Shown: positions 44,101 through 52,129 of the stretch, one piece after another
Numbering within the stretch: the stretch's first letter is position 1
Layout: each line of letters begins with the position of its first letter
Source of the DNA: Luteolibacter sp. SL250
GTDB lineage: Bacteria; Verrucomicrobiota; Verrucomicrobiia; Verrucomicrobiales; Akkermansiaceae
DNA length: 64,000 nt
Reading direction: 5' to 3'
NCBI RefSeq assembly: GCF_026625605.1
Contig: NZ_CP113054.1
Coordinates: 1,674,001 to 1,738,000 of the forward strand
Translations under genes and position numbers: made by a program
The notes under the pieces: model-generated
Seen by the model: the letters and a program-made list of their open reading frames with translations, nothing else
The model's database searches: none
What the model was told of the DNA's origin: nothing

Positions 44101-46335
44101 TCAGAATTCATAACGCAATCCAGCCGAGAGGCCCCTTCCGGGCAGTGGCGCCACGTCTTTGCGGAAAGAGGTGGAAAGCCTCGCTTCCTCGTTCAGCAGG
44201 TTGGTCGCCCGTAGGAACAGCGTCAGTTGGTGATCCCGGACGGGGATGTTCCATGAGGCATCCATGTTCACCATTGTATAGGCATCCGTGGGAAGTTCGG
44301 CGCGGGGTTCCGGCTTCACCCGGTCCTGCCCTGTCGCGTGGCGGATTTCCAGTCCCACGGTGAAACGCTCATCCTGCCATTCCAGACGGGAGCCAAACCG
44401 GAGCGGGGGCATCCGCGGGATCGGTTGGCCTTCGTCTTCATTGGTCCCACGCACGTAGTCACTCATCAACGTGAGCTTCAGGACTTTGCCATCCTCTTCA
44501 TGGATCTTCCAATCCAGCTCCGTTTCAAATCCCGTGAACGTTGCCGCGCGCCCAATGTAGCGGACGGCCTTGCCAAATCCACCGGTGGCGGCGGGATCCT
44601 CCTGCATGAAGATGAAATTTTCGTAATCGTAATGGTAAGCATTCAAGCGGAAGCCGACCGGCCCGCGGCTCGCTTCGACACCGATTTCAAATCCCAACGA
44701 CTCTTCATTGGCAAGCGGTGTGCCGTCCAGGTCCCCGCCGATGAGGAAGCGCCCGATACCCGCGTTGTTCCAGAAGGCGTAGCGTTCGATCGCGGACGGT
44801 TGCCGCTCGGTGAGCGAGACGGTGCCGGTGAGTGCGAGGCGATCCAGTTCGATGAAATTCTCCCTCGCCCAGGTCACCGATCCGGAAGTGGCGGATGAGT
44901 GGTCTTTCTCGCCCCGCAGGAACCCGAAGCTCTCCATGCTATGATCGAGGACTTCGACATACTCGAGGCGGTGGCCGAGACGGAAAGTCCATTCACCGCC
45001 TTCGAACTGCTCCAGGGCATGCAGGCCGTAGTTGTCGCTGCGCAGGAAGGTATCAGTGGTGACCGGATCCGGTGGTGGGTAGATGGTCCGGACCGCGGTG
45101 AAGTCCTCATGCCTGGCGGAGAAGCCGATCACACCCGTCCAGGCGTCGTTGAATCCCCGGTGGTGCATGTCGATGCGGCCTTCGAAGGCATCCTTTTCGA
45201 AATACGAATCCACGAATTCGCTTCCCTCATCCTTTCCCCTGCCGATGAAATATTCGCTGTGGCGGTAGGCGCCGTAACCCAACCTTGCCTGCAGCTTTGA
45301 GACGAAGCCTTGGTCGAAGTCCATGCTGCCCTCGAAATCAAATCGGTCCTGGCTGATATCCAGGTCATACTCCCCGAAGAAGTCGGTCGGATCACCGGGG
45401 TAGATGTAGGGCATCCCGTACCGGCTGTCGAAACGGGAGTAGGAAACTCCCAGGACCAGGGGAAGATTCTCCGGTATCCACGAAAACCCCGCGGACCAGG
45501 TGGAACTGTCGTGGAACGAATGCGGGAGTCTCCCGCTGGGGTTCTCCAATGGAACCACCTGGCCGGAGGCACCGCCCGTGCCCGGGACCCAGACGGAGGG
45601 GCGTTCCAGCATTTCGTAGTCGTCACTCCACGCGTTGCCCGGGATGCGGATGTCCTCCGCTTCGCGGTGTGACCCGGTGAGCTGGAACAGGAACTCTCCG
45701 GCCTTGAGGGTCATGTATCCGGCGGATTCATATCCGCTGGAAACCGAATCGAACCTCTGTTCCAGGGCGCCTGTGGCGACCCGCTTCGGCATGATGCGGG
45801 CGATGCTGCGGCTACGGGCGTTGACCGCCCCACCCACCGCTGAGTTGCCGTAGAGAAGAGCGGCAGGTCCGCGATGGATCTCCACGCTTTCCAGAAGGAA
45901 TGGCTCCAGTGCGACGCCGTGATCCGGGCTGATGTCGGAGAGGTCGAAGGTGTCCAGGTCGTCCCTCAGCATCCTCACCCGGTAGCCTTCGAAGCCACGG
46001 ATCACCGGTCGGCTGGCCCCTGGCGTGAAATAGCTGGAAGAGACACCAGGCTCCCACCCGAGGGTCTCGCCGAGAGTTCCAGTGGCGTTCCGGCGGAGAG
46101 TTTCGGTTTCCACGACCCTGACGGCGTGAGGGGAGTACTGGCCCAACCCGAGCTGCGAGCCTGGATCAGGGGAGGCACTCACGACGATTTCGTCGAGAAG
46201 TGGAGACTCCTCCTCCGATTCGTTGGGGTAGATCGTAACCTCTTGGGCGAGAACGAGATTCCCAGTTAGAAGAAAAACGATGGTGGTCCACACGGAGGAC
46301 GACTGGCAAGGCTGCATGAACGGATAAATACGCAT
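44101..46335 (-). CDS. TonB-dependent outer-membrane receptor, ZnuD-like (metal uptake)
   Basis: 744 residues, or 738 from ATG 46317. Signal about 1-30. After LLDEIVVSASP comes the plug with GASRPVIRGFEGYRVRMLR, SPDHGVALEPFLLESVEI and HRGPAALLYGNSAVGGAVN; the SRPVIRG and SPDH elements mark the zinc-receptor (ZnuD) type rather than siderophore receptors. The 22-strand barrel ends with GLRYEF. It imports zinc or a zinc complex across the outer membrane with TonB. It is divergent from the secreted-protein operon over a 40-60-base gap that holds two candidate operators. Confidence 0.85.
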   Translation of the reverse strand: MRIYPFMQPCQSSSVWTTIVFLLTGNLVLAQEVTIYPNESEEESPLLDEIVVSASPDPGSQLGLGQYSPHAVRVVETETLRRNATGTLGETLGWEPGVSSSYFTPGASRPVIRGFEGYRVRMLRDDLDTFDLSDISPDHGVALEPFLLESVEIHRGPAALLYGNSAVGGAVNARSRSIARIMPKRVATGALEQRFDSVSSGYESAGYMTLKAGEFLFQLTGSHREAEDIRIPGNAWSDDYEMLERPSVWVPGTGGASGQVVPLENPSGRLPHSFHDSSTWSAGFSWIPENLPLVLGVSYSRFDSRYGMPYIYPGDPTDFFGEYDLDISQDRFDFEGSMDFDQGFVSKLQARLGYGAYRHSEYFIGRGKDEGSEFVDSYFEKDAFEGRIDMHHRGFNDAWTGVIGFSARHEDFTAVRTIYPPPDPVTTDTFLRSDNYGLHALEQFEGGEWTFRLGHRLEYVEVLDHSMESFGFLRGEKDHSSATSGSVTWARENFIELDRLALTGTVSLTERQPSAIERYAFWNNAGIGRFLIGGDLDGTPLANEESLGFEIGVEASRGPVGFRLNAYHYDYENFIFMQEDPAATGGFGKAVRYIGRAATFTGFETELDWKIHEEDGKVLKLTLMSDYVRGTNEDEGQPIPRMPPLRFGSRLEWQDERFTVGLEIRHATGQDRVKPEPRAELPTDAYTMVNMDASWNIPVRDHQLTLFLRATNLLNEEARLSTSFRKDVAPLPGRGLSAGLRYEF

Positions 46336-46362
46336 ATGACTTGCGTTAGCAACATCATTGCG
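46329..46362. promoter_or_regulatory. Two candidate Zur-type operator sites in the divergent promoter
   Basis: ACGCATATGACTTGCGT (46330-46346) is a palindrome ACGCA-N7-TGCGT. GCAACATCATTGC (46349-46361) is GCA-N7-TGC. Both overlap the start region of the TonB receptor and of the operon at 46375. A third GCA-N7-TGC lies at 50047. Zur binding is inferred from context only. Confidence 0.45.
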
Positions 46363-46374
46363 ATTGTCTTGGGG

Positions 46375-48012
46375 ATGATGCTTCGCAGCCTGCCGCTGAC
46401 CTTGCTACCTCTCGCTGCCTCAGCGTCGGACCCGCTCAGTGAGATCATTCACGGACACTATGAGATCCACGTGGACTACACGCTGACTCCGGGAAATCCC
46501 GATGCGGGGTGGAAATTTTCGACGTCCTACGACCTGGATGGCAATTTCCTCGACCGCCATCAGGTGATCCGTCTCGACCCTGGCACCACGCCATTTGTGG
46601 CGACGCCGGTCACGCGGCAGCCGATCACACCGGCGCTATCACGGTTCGGTTCCGTAGGGGAGTGGATGTGGATCCTGCCCATCAACCAGGTCACCGGTGC
46701 TCTATATATCGGGGTCAGGACCATCATGAATCCCGGTATCTTCCAGTCCCGTTCGGGCGGAAACTACGCGCCGAGTCCGGCTGGAAGTGTCTCGATGCGT
46801 CTGGTTTCGGTCACGGGCACGGGGCCGGACGCGGGCGGCAGGTTCGGTGCCTGGTACACGGATACCTTTGGTGGTCTGGTGTTTCCCTTCGATACCAGCA
46901 ACGGGATCTCCGCGGCGGATGAGATCCCGACCATCCCTGCGAGCAGTCACACCCACTATTCCTGGGGAATGACCAAGCCGGGCACCTACCATGTGACCTT
47001 CGAAGTCTTTGGGAAAATCAATCCGGGACAACCCGATGCCGAAACCATCACCAAAGCGCAGAAAACCTTCACTTTCCATGTCCCTTTCTCCGGCGAGGTG
47101 CTTGAGGGGCATGAGATCCGCATATCGCCGGAACCCCTCCTGTCCCAACCGGCCGAGTCAGTGGCCTACAAGGCTGACAGGGCCATGATCTGCGCCAACG
47201 TTCCGGACGGTCCCGGGTGGAAGACCACCGGGACCATGGCGACAGCTCCATTGGCAATCGCCAACGGGGTTGGAGTGACGCCCGAAGCCGCATCGCTGCT
47301 GCCGGCCGGATGGTCCAATCTGACCGTAAAAATGATCGGGGTCACAGGTCCGGGGCAATTCGCCTGGCTGGATGGAAATGGTTCTCCGCTCGATCTCCAG
47401 TCGGGACTGCCGATCGGCAGCTCCGAGCGACGGACCGTCACCGCCACCTTTTCAGAGAAGGGGATCTACCGCGTCCACTTCGTTGTGAGCGGAGTCTATC
47501 AGGGAATAGCCGCCTATCATTCGGCCACCGTGGTCTACGGGGCCGGATTGGGTGCGGATTTCACTTATCAGGATTGGGCGACAAGTTTTGAAAGGTCGGC
47601 GGACATCGCGTTGGGAGCGTTGTCCGATCCTACGGGAGACCATGACGGCGATGGGCTGACCAACGGCAGCGAGTATGCGCTGTTCTGGCACGGTTTCGAT
47701 CCGGCGGTTGCCGATGGGGGGAAGATGCCCCGGGCTTTCCCGACTGCCGAGGGCTTTGCCGCCTTTGATTTCCTGCGTGATACCCTGAAGGATCCCCTCA
47801 CCGGAGCAGGATGGAGGATCCTTCCGCAAGCGAGCCGGGACCTGATCCAGTGGAAGACCCTTTCGCCGGTGATCATCAGCTTCCCGCTGGAGACATTCGA
47901 GACGAGTGCCGAAGAAGGAAATGCCCGGGGCGCGATCATGAAACGACGTGTCCGGATGATGCCCGGACCCGAACCCCGGGCGTTCTTCCGCTTCCAGATC
48001 ACCAGCCCCTGA
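46375..48012 (+). CDS. Secreted surface protein with H-x-H 'anchor-M/TIGR03769-like' repeats
   Basis: 545 residues from ATG 46375, preferred over 46336 because it gives a normal signal peptide (MMLRSLPLTLLPLAASASD) and leaves the operator uncoded. Two repeat units are seen; the clearest is SSHTHYSWGMTKPGTYHVTF (near 188), the second RRTVTATFSEKGIYRVHFVV. This motif resembles the TIGR03769 domain of zinc-transport-associated surface proteins. The C-terminal part has DGDGLTNGSEYALFW, a calcium-binding-like segment, and a beta domain (GAGWRILPQASRDLIQW). No PEP-CTERM tail. First gene of the operon. Confidence 0.72.
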   Translation: MMLRSLPLTLLPLAASASDPLSEIIHGHYEIHVDYTLTPGNPDAGWKFSTSYDLDGNFLDRHQVIRLDPGTTPFVATPVTRQPITPALSRFGSVGEWMWILPINQVTGALYIGVRTIMNPGIFQSRSGGNYAPSPAGSVSMRLVSVTGTGPDAGGRFGAWYTDTFGGLVFPFDTSNGISAADEIPTIPASSHTHYSWGMTKPGTYHVTFEVFGKINPGQPDAETITKAQKTFTFHVPFSGEVLEGHEIRISPEPLLSQPAESVAYKADRAMICANVPDGPGWKTTGTMATAPLAIANGVGVTPEAASLLPAGWSNLTVKMIGVTGPGQFAWLDGNGSPLDLQSGLPIGSSERRTVTATFSEKGIYRVHFVVSGVYQGIAAYHSATVVYGAGLGADFTYQDWATSFERSADIALGALSDPTGDHDGDGLTNGSEYALFWHGFDPAVADGGKMPRAFPTAEGFAAFDFLRDTLKDPLTGAGWRILPQASRDLIQWKTLSPVIISFPLETFETSAEEGNARGAIMKRRVRMMPGPEPRAFFRFQITSP

Positions 48013-48042
48013 CTCCGGCGGGACCTTCCATTACAGATCACC

Positions 48043-48795
48043 ATGAAAACGAAACGTCATCCGTTCCGCACGCTCTGCCTGGTTGCAGGTGTCTTCCTTC
48101 CGCTCGTGTCTTCCCAAGGGGCGTCGCTCTATACCTATGGGCATGGCGACATCCGTGTTGGGGCTGTGGGTGGCCAGCTCAGTCTGCAGTACTACATCGG
48201 TGCCCCTGAGTCGGACTATGCGATCGTCGGCGGAGAGTTCGTTTTCGGAGAAAGTTTCGCCGCATCGGACATCTGGGTGAACGTGCCCGTCCAACTGACG
48301 ACCACGCTCCCCGGAGAGTTTCCGTTGCTCGCAGGGTCCGCCGGAGAGTCGGTCTGGGTGATTCCGACCAATGATCCCTATCCCATCGTCGCACCATTCC
48401 TCGGGTTTTCGACGGAGGGATTCGATGGCTCCTTGTGGGGGGGCTTCCAGTTCACTCTCGGTGAGGTCCGTTCGCCTTCCGGAAGCGGGGAGTTCGCCGT
48501 GTGGACGGGGCTGGATGGAGGAGGCATCAATCCTCTTCTCTCGACAGTGGAAGGCGTCAGCCAGGACTCGTTCACGCTGACGGGTAATGGTCACGTCCAC
48601 CATTTCATGGGATTCACGGAGGCCGGTCTCTGGGAAGTGGACTTCACCGTCGCCAGCACTTACCTGCCTGACGGGACATTGGGCAGTGCCACGGAGACAT
48701 ATTATTTCCACGTGGTACCGGAACCTACTTCATTTTGCCTGGCGGCTGCTGGCTTGGCGGCGGTCCTGCTCCGGCGCTCCAGATGCCGGGCATGA
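48043..48795 (+). CDS. PEP-CTERM secreted protein related to the preceding gene
   Basis: 250 residues with a signal peptide (about 1-27) and the sorting tail VPEPTSFCLAAAGLAAVLL-RRSR. The motif GNGHVHHFMGFTEAGLWEVD (H-x-H-H then aromatic, G) matches the repeat in the previous protein. Other parts are beta-rich (GEFVFGESFAASDIWVNVPV). The tail should be cut by an exosortase and the protein held at the surface or released into the EPS. It starts 30 bases after the previous stop, in operon. Confidence 0.78.
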   Translation: MKTKRHPFRTLCLVAGVFLPLVSSQGASLYTYGHGDIRVGAVGGQLSLQYYIGAPESDYAIVGGEFVFGESFAASDIWVNVPVQLTTTLPGEFPLLAGSAGESVWVIPTNDPYPIVAPFLGFSTEGFDGSLWGGFQFTLGEVRSPSGSGEFAVWTGLDGGGINPLLSTVEGVSQDSFTLTGNGHVHHFMGFTEAGLWEVDFTVASTYLPDGTLGSATETYYFHVVPEPTSFCLAAAGLAAVLLRRSRCRA

Positions 48796-48855
48796 GAATG
48801 GGCGCATGGGGCAAGCACTCCCCCGGATCACTCCACTACTGTTCCTCCTGATACC

Positions 48856-49974
48856 ATGGACATCACGTTGATCACCGGATTTCTCGGAGCTGGCAAAACC
48901 ACCTTCCTGAACCGATTCATCCGCGAGTATGCGGACGGGGCCGAGCTGGGGGTCATCGTGAACGACCTCAGCGAGCTGGAGGTGGATGGCGAGTTGATCC
49001 GCGGAGGGCACAAGGTGTCCGAAGAGAAAGGTACACTGATCAGTTTGTTCAATGGCTCCATTTCCTCGGGAAGGAGCACGGACTTCTCGGAAGCTTTGCG
49101 GACCATGCGCGGACGGGGAATCGGGCGACTGATGATCGAGACATCCGGAGGATCCCATCCCGCGAAGGTGCTGGAAGCGATCCGTGCCACCCCGGGCGCG
49201 AATCTGGGCGCGGTTGTCACGCTGGTTGATTCAAGGATGATTCTCCACGACTACGACGAAGGCCGTACGCTGATCGAGGCGGTCCTCGAGGGTGATCGGC
49301 CGACGGAGAATCTTCTCGCCGACCAGGTGGGGGCTGCAAGCGTGGTGGTGATGACGAAGATCGATCTGGTGCCGGAGAACTCACTGCGCACGATCTTCCG
49401 GGGGATGATGGCGTTGAACCCGGAGGCCGTGTTTGTTGCCTGCGCCTACGGGAAGATGGATTGGAAGATCCTTTCGCAGGCCGGACCTCCTGCTGCCGAT
49501 CTTCCGGTCAAGGCCCCCAGGGATCTTCCGGAGATCGTTTCACGGGTGGTCCGGGATCCGCGTCCACTCCATCCCGCGCGATTCCACGAACTGTATCGCA
49601 GCAAGCTGGGCATCGGTGTGTACCGCAGCAAGGGGTTCATCTGGTTCGCCAGCCGTCCGGACCAGGTGCTGCTCTGGAACCAAGCCGGAGGAGCCCTGGG
49701 CATCGAGCTTGTCGCGTTCTGGAAGGTGCACATGCTGGAGCACGATTCGCGGCTGCTTCCGGAAGAGAAGGATCACCTGCGCCGGTTGCTTGCGGGACAG
49801 TATCCGGTCTTCGGTGACCGGAACTGTGAACTCACCCTGATCGGCTTGGAGCAGGATGTCAGGATCTTCGAGGCAGAGTTGCTGAAATGCTTCTGCACGC
49901 CCGGGGAGATCAGCACCTGGAGGAATGGTGGAACATTCGCCGATCCATGGCCGAGCAAGTTGGCGCGGCTATAG
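48856..49974 (+). CDS. CobW/COG0523 GTPase (YciC-like), CxCC motif replaced by serines
   Basis: 372 residues. Walker A is TLITGFLGAGKTTFLNRF, the switch-like GVIVNDLSELEVDGELI, the base motif VVMTKIDLVPE and the C-terminal CobW_C domain (about 250-365; SKGFIWFASRPDQVLLW, ending in FADPWP). The NDxSE variant is typical of YciC-type zinc-linked members. Where GCxCC should follow, it reads FNGSISSGRSTDF, so all three cysteines are Ser. COG0523 GTPases supply metal to target enzymes and their genes are often in Zur regulons. Here the metal site must be elsewhere or absent. Confidence 0.9.
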   Translation: MDITLITGFLGAGKTTFLNRFIREYADGAELGVIVNDLSELEVDGELIRGGHKVSEEKGTLISLFNGSISSGRSTDFSEALRTMRGRGIGRLMIETSGGSHPAKVLEAIRATPGANLGAVVTLVDSRMILHDYDEGRTLIEAVLEGDRPTENLLADQVGAASVVVMTKIDLVPENSLRTIFRGMMALNPEAVFVACAYGKMDWKILSQAGPPAADLPVKAPRDLPEIVSRVVRDPRPLHPARFHELYRSKLGIGVYRSKGFIWFASRPDQVLLWNQAGGALGIELVAFWKVHMLEHDSRLLPEEKDHLRRLLAGQYPVFGDRNCELTLIGLEQDVRIFEAELLKCFCTPGEISTWRNGGTFADPWPSKLARL

Positions 49975-50044
49975 GGTGGAAGTCGGCTCATCGCTGTCTG
50001 CCTTGATAAAGTGGCTCATCGCACGAAAAGTAAAAAATATACTA

Positions 50045-50062
50045 TTGCATATTGATTGCGTT
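50045..50062 (+). promoter_or_regulatory. Candidate Zur-type operator upstream of the His-rich PEP-CTERM gene
   Basis: TTGCATATTGATTGCGTT contains GCA-N7-TGC (50047-50059). It matches CGCATATGACTTGCGTT at the other promoter of the island closely and lies about 55 bases before the ATG at 50117, in AT-rich DNA. Confidence 0.42.
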
Positions 50063-50116
50063 TGACGGAGGATTGCCCGCGCAGTTGAGATGCCTCGCTG
50101 CTTCAAGTGTATTACC

Positions 50117-50788
50117 ATGAAAATCAGTAAATTAAGCCAATCTCTGCTTCGATCCGGCGCGGTTGCCGCCTTGGTCTTCGCATCGTCCTCTGCCCAACGA
50201 GCGGATGCCGCCCTCCACCTCGCCTTCGGTGTCGATACCAATGCGGGTTCCCCGACGACCTTCAACCAGATCCGGGTGCGAGATCTTCACGATGACCACT
50301 ATCACGGCTTCACGCAGAACAATGGAACTGCCGGCAGCCACGTCCCTGAGCCCTTCGTGGTGATTCCCGGATCAGGGATGGCGACCCTGGATCTCGCCTC
50401 CATGGATATTTCCCCCTTCAGTTCCTCGCGCTACACCACCACCCTGACACCGGGAGGCGACTTCCATCTTGAGCTCATCGGCCTTACGGGCATCGACACT
50501 GACAACCTCATCGTCCGCTTCTGGCATGACGACCACACCCATACGATGTCGGTTGGCGGGAACGCCGAGCACCTCAGCCTGGCCGAAATCAACAAGATCG
50601 ATTTCGCGCTGGCCAGTGGTGCCGGGCTGGGCAGCTACTCCGCCCAGTTCAGGATCGTCGATGAAGGGGAGACATACATCACCTCTCCGACGTTCACCAT
50701 CCACGTGAATGCGGTTCCGGAGCCATCTGCGGCACTTCTCGGTGCGGCGGCCCTCGGCTTCGGCATCCTGCGCCGCAGGCGCCGCTGA
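50117..50788 (+). CDS. Histidine-rich PEP-CTERM protein, all3515-like (Zur-repressed family)
   Basis: 223 residues from ATG 50117. Signal peptide about 1-33 (QRADAAL). Two His clusters, DLHDDHYHGFTQN and FWHDDHTHTMSVG, are candidate metal sites; VPEPSAALLGAAALGFGIL-RRRRR is the PEP-CTERM tail. It closely resembles the family named 'all3515 Zur-repressed PEP-CTERM protein' in cyanobacteria and proteobacteria. The role is unknown, perhaps zinc binding at the surface. It follows the CobW gene by 142 bases with its own operator-like site and terminator. Confidence 0.85.
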   Translation: MKISKLSQSLLRSGAVAALVFASSSAQRADAALHLAFGVDTNAGSPTTFNQIRVRDLHDDHYHGFTQNNGTAGSHVPEPFVVIPGSGMATLDLASMDISPFSSSRYTTTLTPGGDFHLELIGLTGIDTDNLIVRFWHDDHTHTMSVGGNAEHLSLAEINKIDFALASGAGLGSYSAQFRIVDEGETYITSPTFTIHVNAVPEPSAALLGAAALGFGILRRRRR

Positions 50789-51346: not shown

Positions 51347-52129
51347 TCAGGCTTTCTTGGCAGCTGCCTTTTTCGCCGGTGCCTTCTTAGCGGGGGCCGC
51401 TTTTTTGGCTGGGGCTTTCTTGGCGGCGGCTTTTTTGGCCGGAGCTTTCTTGGCTACCTTTTTGGCGGCGGCTTTTTTGGCCGGAGCTTTCTTGGCGGGA
51501 GCCGCTTTCTTTGCGACGGTTTTCTTCGCAGCCTTCTTCACGGTTTTCTTGGCGCTTTTCGCTGCCACCTTTTTCGCCGCTTTCTTGGCTACCTTTTTGG
51601 CAGGAGCCTTTTTGGCGGGTGCTTTCTTAGCCGGTGCCTTTTTGGCAGGAGCCTTTTTGGCTGCGGCTTTTTTGGCCGGAGCTTTCTTGGCAACTTTCTT
51701 TACGGCTTTCTTCGCGGTTTTGGCCGCGGCCTTCTTCGCTGTTTTTTTTGCAGCCATGGCTTTGTGTCTTTGGAGTTCGCGTTCGATGTTGGTTTTCTCT
51801 TCCGGAGTTAACTGACCGGCGGAGAGGATAGCGAGGATCGCCTCATCGAGTCGTCCTCCAAAAGCGTTGAGGAAGTCGTGAGTCGCGCTGCGGACGATGA
51901 CTTCCTGGTTGTAGGTCGCGTCATAGACATGGGCGCGGCCTTCGGTGGTGATGCGCTTGACGAGCTTCTTGCGCTCGAGGCTCTGCATCACGGAGAGCAC
52001 GGTGGTGTAGGCGCGTTCCTTTCCATCCGGCAGCGCCGCATGCACCGAGGAGACGGTGGAGGGTCCATCGTGCCAGATGACTGAGAGCGCCTGGAGTTCG
52101 AGGTTGGATGGATGGGATGGCCTGGCCAT
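51347..52129 (-). CDS. BlaI/MecI/CopY-family repressor fused to a histone H1-like tail
   Basis: 260 residues. Residues 1-118 are a BlaI-type winged helix: ELQALSVIWHDGPSTVSSVH, AYTTVLSVMQSLERKKLVKR and the dimerisation helix GGRLDEAILAILSAGQLTPE. From 124 to the end the chain is nearly all Lys, Ala, Pro and Val in repeats such as AKKAPAKKA, like histone H1 or bacterial AlgP/HctB tails. There is no stop between the parts. Met125 could start a separate H1-like product. The tail should bind DNA non-specifically and the head one operator. No blaR or beta-lactamase gene is next to it. Confidence 0.9.
   Translation of the reverse strand: MARPSHPSNLELQALSVIWHDGPSTVSSVHAALPDGKERAYTTVLSVMQSLERKKLVKRITTEGRAHVYDATYNQEVIVRSATHDFLNAFGGRLDEAILAILSAGQLTPEEKTNIERELQRHKAMAAKKTAKKAAAKTAKKAVKKVAKKAPAKKAAAKKAPAKKAPAKKAPAKKAPAKKVAKKAAKKVAAKSAKKTVKKAAKKTVAKKAAPAKKAPAKKAAAKKVAKKAPAKKAAAKKAPAKKAAPAKKAPAKKAAAKKA

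Follow-up and report, generated by a model that had tools for sequence, protein, structure and literature searches.

A probable zinc-starvation island of Luteolibacter sp. SL250 pairing secreted HxD/HxH proteins with a ZnuD-type receptor

Layout of the island

A 64,000-nt stretch of Luteolibacter sp. SL250 (contig NZ_CP113054.1, positions 1,674,001 to 1,738,000; hereafter the window) holds an island of five genes in 6.7 kb (44101-50788) that very probably serves zinc acquisition. A TonB-dependent receptor gene of the ZnuD type (44101..46335, minus strand), recognized by profile and structure matches and belonging to a subclade seen only beside CAM1, lies back to back with three genes on the plus strand. 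These are CAM1 (46336..48012, likelier start 46375), a secreted protein in which profile matches and an alignment show two choice_anch_M-type domains; CAM2 (48043..48795), also secreted, with a choice_anch_M domain from profile matches and a predicted beta-sandwich; and a COG0523-like GTPase (48856..49974), with an intact Walker A motif and NGSISS replacing the metal-binding NGCICC. The fifth gene, also on the plus strand (50117..50788), has its own upstream region and encodes a short ZepA/all3515-like PEP-CTERM protein with an HDDHYH motif and a second His cluster, HDDHTH. An operator-like palindrome, CGCATATGACTTGCG (opposite strand CGCAAGTCATATGCG), is found between the divergent receptor and CAM1 genes at 46331..46345, with similar sites in relatives. 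A second (opposite strand CGCAATCAATATGCA) is at 50046..50060, 56 bp ahead of the start codon of the ZepA-like gene at 50117.

Intergenic gaps of only 30 bp (CAM1-CAM2) and 60 bp (CAM2-GTPase) indicate that CAM1, CAM2 and the GTPase gene probably form a single transcript. Scans for sigma-70 promoters and terminators gave matches at chance level only. An initial annotation, made from the sequence alone, had placed five genes at these coordinates, and open reading frame (ORF) and profile checks agree with it. The first CAM ORF opens at 46336, versus 46375 in that annotation, and the latter start is plausible because the palindrome covers positions 46331-46345. The annotation's term “Zur-family PEP-CTERM protein” should read Zur-repressed family, as the protein is not a Zur regulator.

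Relatives were taken from two samples, in which genomes are numbered with G and loci with L. The discovery sample consists of 189 genomes, an even draw from the larger order; first-pass scoring took in, per genome, up to 5 candidates for the receptor, up to 10 for the GTPase and up to 15 for the ZepA-like protein, so that lower-ranked paralogues could be missed. The second, a named genome collection, gave 12 full-length CAM1 loci (L088-L099), whose records are labelled Akkermansiaceae, Verrucomicrobiaceae, Verrucomicrobiales, Verrucomicrobiota or Roseibacillus. Four of these (L089, L090, L098 and L099) are the same contigs as those of G136, G156, G088 and G105, which leaves 14 distinct CAM1 loci overall. 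The initial proposal of a common system would have fallen had homologues of these genes never co-occurred; they do co-occur, and because the same kinds of genes cluster in relatives, the grouping is more than chance.

Receptor, secreted proteins and GTPase

The receptor displays the Plug and barrel domains of a ZnuD-like TonB receptor in the broad sense. Its best NCBIfam model is ZnuD (NF038289), although the score of 239 bits is below the cut-off of 950, and the closest solved structure by sequence is ZnuD 4rdr (E 5e-33), with PhuR next (2e-11). Domains, best model and best structure thus uphold the earlier description of a ZnuD-like receptor of the SPDH type. The zinc ligands of ZnuD are Asp-99, His-100, Glu-340 and His-499 (PMC4557270). 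Three of the four are kept in the window's receptor, i.e., the plug Asp and His of SPDH, and Glu361, with Asn524 in the place of His-499; a loop insertion, GGDLDGTPL, is also present. Both SPDH and the Glu are conserved in 13/13 CAM1-linked receptors and in 4/4 unlinked relatives compared. The loop-6 His is retained in the four unlinked receptors, whereas Asn (11) or Ser (1) is found at this position in all 12 assessable CAM1-linked receptors. The same 12 share a GGD[LM]DG insertion, the thirteenth (L097) being shortened by a contig end. By analogy with ZnuD, the receptor would transport zinc.

The receptor subclade and CAM1 have the same distribution. Receptor matches at E<=1e-60 number 39, in 37 of the 189 genomes, six of them at 42-100% identity and the other 33 at 32-36%. 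The subclade at 42% or more is confined to six genomes (the window's genome, G064, G088, G105, G136 and G156), exactly those with full-length CAM1, and in all six the receptor is divergent from CAM1. Matches to choice_anch_M as such occur in 22 of the 189 genomes, 21 of these above the cut-off. In the named collection a divergent receptor is found at 11 of the 12 CAM1 loci and CAM2 is downstream at all 12; the exception, L096, begins at a contig end 384 bp ahead of the CAM1 match. Over the 14 distinct CAM1 loci the receptor is therefore present at 13, the last being L096.

Both secreted CAM proteins pass the choice_anch_M model NF038134 (CAM1 60.7 and CAM2 61.1 bits versus a cut-off of 55). 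CAM1 also passes TIGR03769, with 34.5 bits versus 30.9, and CAM2 fails it with 14.9. The initial annotation saw an H-x-H repeat common to the two proteins. HxH is present in both, but it is only half of a longer bracket in which HxD and HxH stand about 150 residues apart, as in the ZnuE/F/G-CmrA surface domain. In the window the brackets read HVD...HTH and HGD...HVH: H45xD47 ... H205xH207 in the first domain of CAM1, and H34xD36 ... H184/H186 in CAM2. In alignments that include the window's proteins, HxD and HxH are invariant in 6/6 CAM1 rows and 15/15 single-domain CAM rows; these rows were chosen by hand, with fragments and multi-copy proteins left out, and the wider CAM list has a few entries without HxD by search pattern, e.g., L044_637 and the fragment L038_1. 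The second CAM domain of CAM1 is degenerate and has no HxH, and is linked to the CAM2 profile with an hhalign probability of 98%.

Pfam and NCBIfam scans of CAM1 gave no PEP-CTERM match, and no anchor was found. CAM2 has a PEP-CTERM signal that is above the Pfam cut-off (23.6 versus 20.7) and below that of TIGR02595 (13.5 versus 16), and an exosortase is present in the window's genome. The predicted model of CAM2 is a confident beta-sandwich, with a mean predicted local distance difference test (pLDDT) score of 84. A Foldseek search of the PDB with this model gave no match at E<=0.001, and when the CAM profile was run against PDB sequences no hit fell below E 0.16. The best VIA-align result (3f6i, Z 6.7, root mean square deviation 2.8, 101 aligned) is within the tool's range for common arrangements, thus the fold is assigned no further than beta-sandwich. 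As a separate observation, some relatives have very long CAM proteins of up to 2304 residues, several of them multi-copy and some with His-rich stretches (L048:8900-15814(+), L056:2293-9126(+), L045, L055 and L059).

The closest described parallel to the CAM proteins is in the znu cluster of Corynebacterium diphtheriae, where ZnuE, ZnuF, ZnuG, CmrA and CmrA2 are secreted, anchored HxD/HxH proteins with about 150 bracketed residues, regulated by zinc and Zur and encoded beside a zinc transporter (PMC12445094). These C. diphtheriae proteins with the HxD...HxH bracket are zinc-regulated (PMC12445094), and published lists of actinobacterial Zur regulons include cmrA and sapD (PMC6711530, PMC2823685). 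In thermal-shift assays ZnuE and ZnuF bound zinc and ZnuG probably did (PMC12445094). By analogy, CAM1 and CAM2 may bind zinc through HxD/HxH. The C. diphtheriae domain serves an ATP-binding cassette (ABC) transporter in a Gram-positive wall, whereas in the island it goes together with a TonB receptor of the outer membrane and with anchoring of the PEP-CTERM kind.

The product of the fifth gene was initially described as a PEP-CTERM protein like all3515. The motif supports this, but the score does not: HDDHYH fits the ZepA motif H-X2-9-H-[FY]-H (PMC10957091) and aligns with the motif of two ZepA rows, while the all3515/ZepA model NF040463 gives 28.2 bits versus a cut-off of 75 and covers only the C-terminal half of the profile. 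The two ZepA rows used for comparison are 56-70 residues longer than the protein; because of this difference and its score under the family cut-off, the protein is named ZepA-like and not ZepA. A signal peptide was judged present by eye, and the PEP-CTERM signal is above the cut-off of TIGR02595 (18.4 versus 16) and below that of Pfam (18.7 versus 20.7). The predicted model, from 4 sequences, has a pLDDT of 60 and was set aside, also as evidence on the two-domain fold of ZepA. A single close relative was found in the 189 genomes, L115 in G088, with 55% identity and a shared HDDHTH; 80 bp upstream of it is a palindrome that deviates by one base. In G134, a genome of the same genus, a true all3515/ZepA (200.3 bits versus 75) is a neighbour of CAM, and G157 has a homologue of it. 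By analogy with ZepA, the ZepA-like protein would bind zinc via its HxxHYH sites.

The GTPase has both CobW domains (PF02492 and PF07683) and the P-loop GFLGAGKTT, and ZigA is its best model over most of its length. To this extent it is the COG0523 GTPase of the initial annotation, but it reaches only 170.5 bits versus the ZigA cut-off of 600, and NGSISS occupies the position of NGCICC. CXCC is described as conserved in all COG0523 members, with Rv0106, which does not have the canonical motif, treated as an outgroup (PMC2770081). Thus the GTPase resembles the ZigA/COG0523 zinc GTPases in its CobW domains, P-loop, near full-length match and zinc-regulon context, and differs in having lost their CxCC (PMC2770081). 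The loss is general in this branch: homologues at E<=1e-40, a threshold that favours the GTPase's own branch, occur in 27 of the 189 genomes. Setting aside the window's protein leaves 26, two of them truncated at contig ends, and CxCC is absent in 24/24 assessable ones (16 with GS[IM]S and 8 with an HAR/HAG form). Eleven of the 24 have a relaxed-pattern palindrome at most 400 bp upstream, in ten cases within about 65 bp of the start. With the GTPase's own sequence as query, a single match at E<=0.001 was found in the window's genome.

A further comparison, in which the window's protein is counted and L051 and L099 are one locus, shows CxCC in 19 of 24 assessable sequences. CxCC-bearing ZigA proteins beside CAM genes in L049 and L051 reach 612 bits, above the cut-off of 600. 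L060 and L092 carry both GTPase types, hence the lost-motif type is a separate paralogue. The initial suggestion that the GTPase distributes zinc is not borne out, since the metal-binding CxCC is absent from the window's protein and from every assessable close homologue, and zinc delivery through a CxCC site is excluded for the window's GTPase. That it is an ordinary metallochaperone of the ZigA kind, binding zinc by other residues, is considered unlikely. Such a role would agree with the ZigA match, with the intact Walker A, with the CxCC-type proteins in similar clusters of relatives and with a second GTPase subgroup that has His residues near the lost motif; it is opposed by the low ZigA score, by GSIS in the window's protein and no CxCC in its 24 homologues at E<=1e-40 when 19 of 24 sequences of the further comparison have it, and by the separate paralogues of L060 and L092. 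Most likely the GTPase acts on a partner protein without zinc at the CxCC site. The Mrf ribosome-hibernation GTPase (NF047431), another zinc-regulated family, was also considered and left as unlikely, with 66.3 bits versus a cut-off of 375. A second point against this role is the zinc-binding CXXC that Mrf reportedly has (PMC13418864).

The operator-like palindrome

Both island promoters carry a 15-bp palindrome of the form YGCAA-N5-WTGCR, and the site at 46331-46345 spans both divergent starts. Visual inspection of six receptor/CAM1 regions and of the window's ZepA-like promoter first revealed the pattern, therefore only eight further receptor/CAM1 regions and a ZnuA site in the same genome (below) represent independent tests. 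The exact palindrome is found in five of the six discovery regions, the sixth having a one-base variant, and in seven of the eight further regions. Shuffled sequences gave on average 0.076 regions with the pattern for the discovery set and 0.062 for the further set, and none of 500 shuffles gave more than 3 or 2 regions, respectively. Over 25 CAM loci, the 15,395 bp that surround starts of recurrent genes (-120 to +15) contain 48 sites and the 354,662 bp inside genes contain 5, a count that overstates independence because the loci were chosen for CAM genes and the gene groups for recurrence. A site upstream of such genes (-40 to +150) is present in 16 of the 21 CAM-bearing genomes.

In relatives the palindrome is found upstream of znuA, CxCC-type COG0523, hisI, zepA and CAM genes, among others, and in L091 a site is flanked by a CxCC-type COG0523 gene on one side and a Zur-like gene on the other. 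Thus a palindromic operator-like site is shared with zinc genes at promoters, as in a Zur regulon. The window's genome has three FUR-family genes, of which L004 was judged Zur-like from its Cys motifs by eye, and we infer that the palindrome is a putative Zur operator. A palindrome termed “motif 3”, not necessarily of the same sequence, has been described upstream of zepA in Luteolibacter yonseiensis (PMC10957091).

In the 4.9 Mb of the window's own genome the palindrome occurs at 26 places, two of them in the island; counted by strand there are 33 hits, versus 16 for the reversed pattern. One site (L134, position 10267) is 34 bp ahead of a ZnuA-family gene (L134:9349-10233(-)). Twenty-four of the 26 places were examined, and 20 of these, including the window's second site, are inside open frames of at least 80 codons, some of which are plainly spurious. 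The four outside such frames are the window's first site, the ZnuA site, a site beside a His-rich/RND-type cluster, and L067, which has no zinc gene. The palindrome-linked ZnuA-family gene is followed by a gene for an EamA/DMT-looking membrane protein (L134:8435-9352(-)), with no obvious ABC permease as judged by eye. The site at the His-rich/RND-type cluster (L135, own genome 126000-140000, site 7029) is about 70-85 bp ahead of a short His-rich ORF. The genes after this ORF resemble, by eye, TolC- and CzcA-type metal efflux genes; the site may be there by chance, or the operator may have a second use.

Zinc acquisition and alternative readings

The island is most probably a zinc-starvation acquisition module. 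The initial annotation had already proposed a zinc-limitation island uniting secreted proteins with a ZnuD-type receptor, and this is supported by the shared palindrome, by co-occurrence and by znuA, zepA, COG0523 and Zur-like neighbours in relatives. At high zinc, both palindromes would be bound by a repressor that senses zinc, for which the likeliest candidate is L004, a Zur-like member of the FUR family encoded elsewhere in the genome; the first would shut the receptor gene and the CAM1-CAM2-GTPase unit and the second the ZepA-like gene. When zinc drops, three secreted, presumably zinc-binding proteins would be made, i.e., CAM1, CAM2 (which exosortase would anchor at the envelope) and the ZepA-like protein. 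Judging from zinc-tested relatives, these may concentrate zinc at the surface via HxD/HxH and HxxHYH sites. The receptor, powered by TonB, would then bring zinc through the outer membrane, and CAM1, which constantly accompanies it in genomes, is the probable zinc donor. In the periplasm, a ZnuA-family protein whose gene has an operator-like site of this kind may pass the zinc on. The GTPase would be a COG0523-like protein induced by starvation; as it has no CxCC metal site, it more probably has a partner protein as its target than holds zinc itself at that site.

Several observations weigh against this reading. L088 does not have the palindrome in its receptor/CAM1 gap, and in five of the 21 CAM-bearing genomes (G014, G044, G077, G088 and G137) no exact palindrome is upstream of the recurrent genes in the fetched stretch. 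In the window's own genome no exact palindrome is near the Zur-like gene or near the other ZnuD-like receptor (33% identity), and the other ZnuA-family gene (3004940) has no exact site, the only variant site being inside a gene; conversely, the His-rich/RND-type cluster that does have a site beside it is efflux-like in appearance. The label Zur-like is, for L004, a reading of its Cys motifs and, for the neighbours, of BLAST matches to L004. The loop-6 His of ZnuD is absent from the window's receptor. In C. diphtheriae, the model species, zinc still produced a shift in vitro in a ZnuE with His changed to Ala (PMC12445094), so that even there HxD/HxH as a zinc ligand is unproved, and in certain backgrounds ZnuF and ZnuG restricted growth (PMC12445094).

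The last point bears on a reading that we hold to be possible, if somewhat short of probable: that CAM1, CAM2 and the ZepA-like protein buffer zinc and do not deliver it, holding or storing it at the cell surface and denying it to neighbours, while the receptor independently uses free zinc or a small metallophore. Over-made ZnuF and ZnuG slow growth, and their deletion rescues a znuAECB mutant (PMC12445094); such a limit on growth in Corynebacterium allows for zinc being held by CAM1. CAM genes occur without the receptor subclade in 16 of 22 CAM-bearing genomes, and the very long, partly multi-copy CAM proteins would fit storage. However, CAM1, unlike other CAM proteins, is always accompanied by the receptor subclade where the contig permits (13/13) and shares a promoter region with it, and the loop-6 change is specific to the CAM1 pairing. 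This exclusive pairing, together with the altered loop 6, favours hand-over from CAM1 to the receptor.

A stronger form of the hand-over is more tentative, and as a whole rather unlikely. CAM1 would be a released protein zincophore that picks up zinc through its HxD/HxH site and docks on a receptor in which the loop-6 His has been lost and the GGDLDG loop gained for zinc hand-over, and the cysteine-less GTPase would belong to a new zinc-regulon branch active without zinc at the CxCC position. HasA and HasR are such a pair of secreted haemophore and TonB receptor. The likeness lies in the partnership between a secreted metal-ligand carrier and a TonB receptor of the loop-6/plug clamp type (HasR comparison in PMC4557270). 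The ligand in the island would be zinc.

That the island serves a transition metal other than zinc, be it cobalt, nickel, manganese or haem iron, with some other metal regulator in control, is highly improbable. In favour of such a role, the substrates of TonB receptors cannot easily be predicted, and even ZnuD was at first annotated as a haem transporter (PMC4557270); CobW and haem-receptor models match below their cut-offs, and one own-genome palindrome lies beside the His-rich/RND-type cluster. Against it, the metal-assignable neighbours are mostly of zinc (full-score ZigA, true ZepA with 200 bits in L037, AztC-like ZnuA, hisI and Zur-like FUR, with a FeoB-like and a MerC-domain protein as exceptions), and the HxD/HxH and ZepA families are zinc-tested elsewhere.

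Parts of the zinc-acquisition module have been described before. ZepA (All3515) of Anabaena and its homologues in Planctomycetes-Verrucomicrobia-Chlamydiae (PVC) bacteria are, like the island's protein, PEP-CTERM secreted zinc proteins with H-X2-9-H-[FY]-H, and zepA neighbourhoods, those of PVC bacteria included, contain COG0523, TonB receptor, PEP-CTERM and FUR genes (PMC10957091). The available part of that paper says nothing of CAM proteins or of a dedicated ZnuD subclade. ZnuD of Neisseria meningitidis (4rdr) shares with the receptor the SPDH plug and the equivalents of Asp-99, His-100 and Glu-340; unlike the CAM1-linked receptors it has His-499 and no GGD[LM]DG loop, and the excerpts of PMC4557270 mention no HxH-rich partner. 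The earlier statement that no system with this set had been described is thus partly superseded, as ZepA neighbourhoods (PMC10957091) and the HxD/HxH domain (PMC12445094) were already known, while the five-gene set as such was not found in open-licence PMC literature on Zur, zinc, PEP-CTERM, choice-of-anchor M, Verrucomicrobi or COG0523. Most parts come from known zinc families; unusual are their combination, a receptor seen only with CAM1, and a GTPase without metal-binding cysteines. The island thus joins in one operator-controlled unit two zinc systems described separately, the actinobacterial HxD/HxH surface proteins and the Gram-negative ZepA/ZnuD. CAM1 and its receptor provide a defined pair for asking whether bacteria use secreted protein zincophores, and the CxCC-less GTPases bear on the question of COG0523 protein function.

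The palindrome may also serve to recognize zinc regulons in genomes of Verrucomicrobiota, and some candidate families already emerge from it: a 180-270-residue family, a His-rich porin, a FeoB-like transporter and the CxCC-less COG0523-like GTPases. Other CAM genes have znuABC, Zur-like, hisI, COG0523, FeoB-like and other genes nearby, and Zur-like genes are in the same clusters in L045, L048, L056/L090, L091 and L095. The family of about 180-270 residues (starts uncertain) is found at 11 loci near CAM and COG0523 genes, e.g., L040:11074-11664(+), L043:6153-6836(+), L051:4302-4883(-) and L052:1033-1833(+). The one member scanned gave no Pfam or NCBIfam match, and the palindrome is upstream in G019, G104, G124 and G178; the family is a candidate for a new zinc-regulon protein. 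The His-rich porin-like protein (Porin_O_P under the cut-off) occurs at 5 loci, e.g., L040:5080-6429(-), L054:6939-8312(+) and L052:4982-6412(+), with the palindrome upstream in four of five genomes. The FeoB-like protein, with GTPase and Gate domains in the one member scanned, is also found at 5 loci, e.g., L060:7174-8874(-), L056:17195-18862(-) and L043:6791-8476(+); the palindrome is upstream in L056, and the protein is possibly a zinc-regulated transporter. A prepilin-type protein (DUF1559 in the one member scanned) occurs at 11 loci, e.g., L048:6113-6835(+), L052:2762-3514(+), L057:4783-5514(+) and L049:8831-9553(+), with the palindrome upstream in six genomes. In the window itself, the gene at 51347-52129 (minus strand) encodes a protein with a regulator-like N-terminus, as judged by eye, followed by long Ala/Lys repeats (PAKKA) similar to a histone-H1-type tail.

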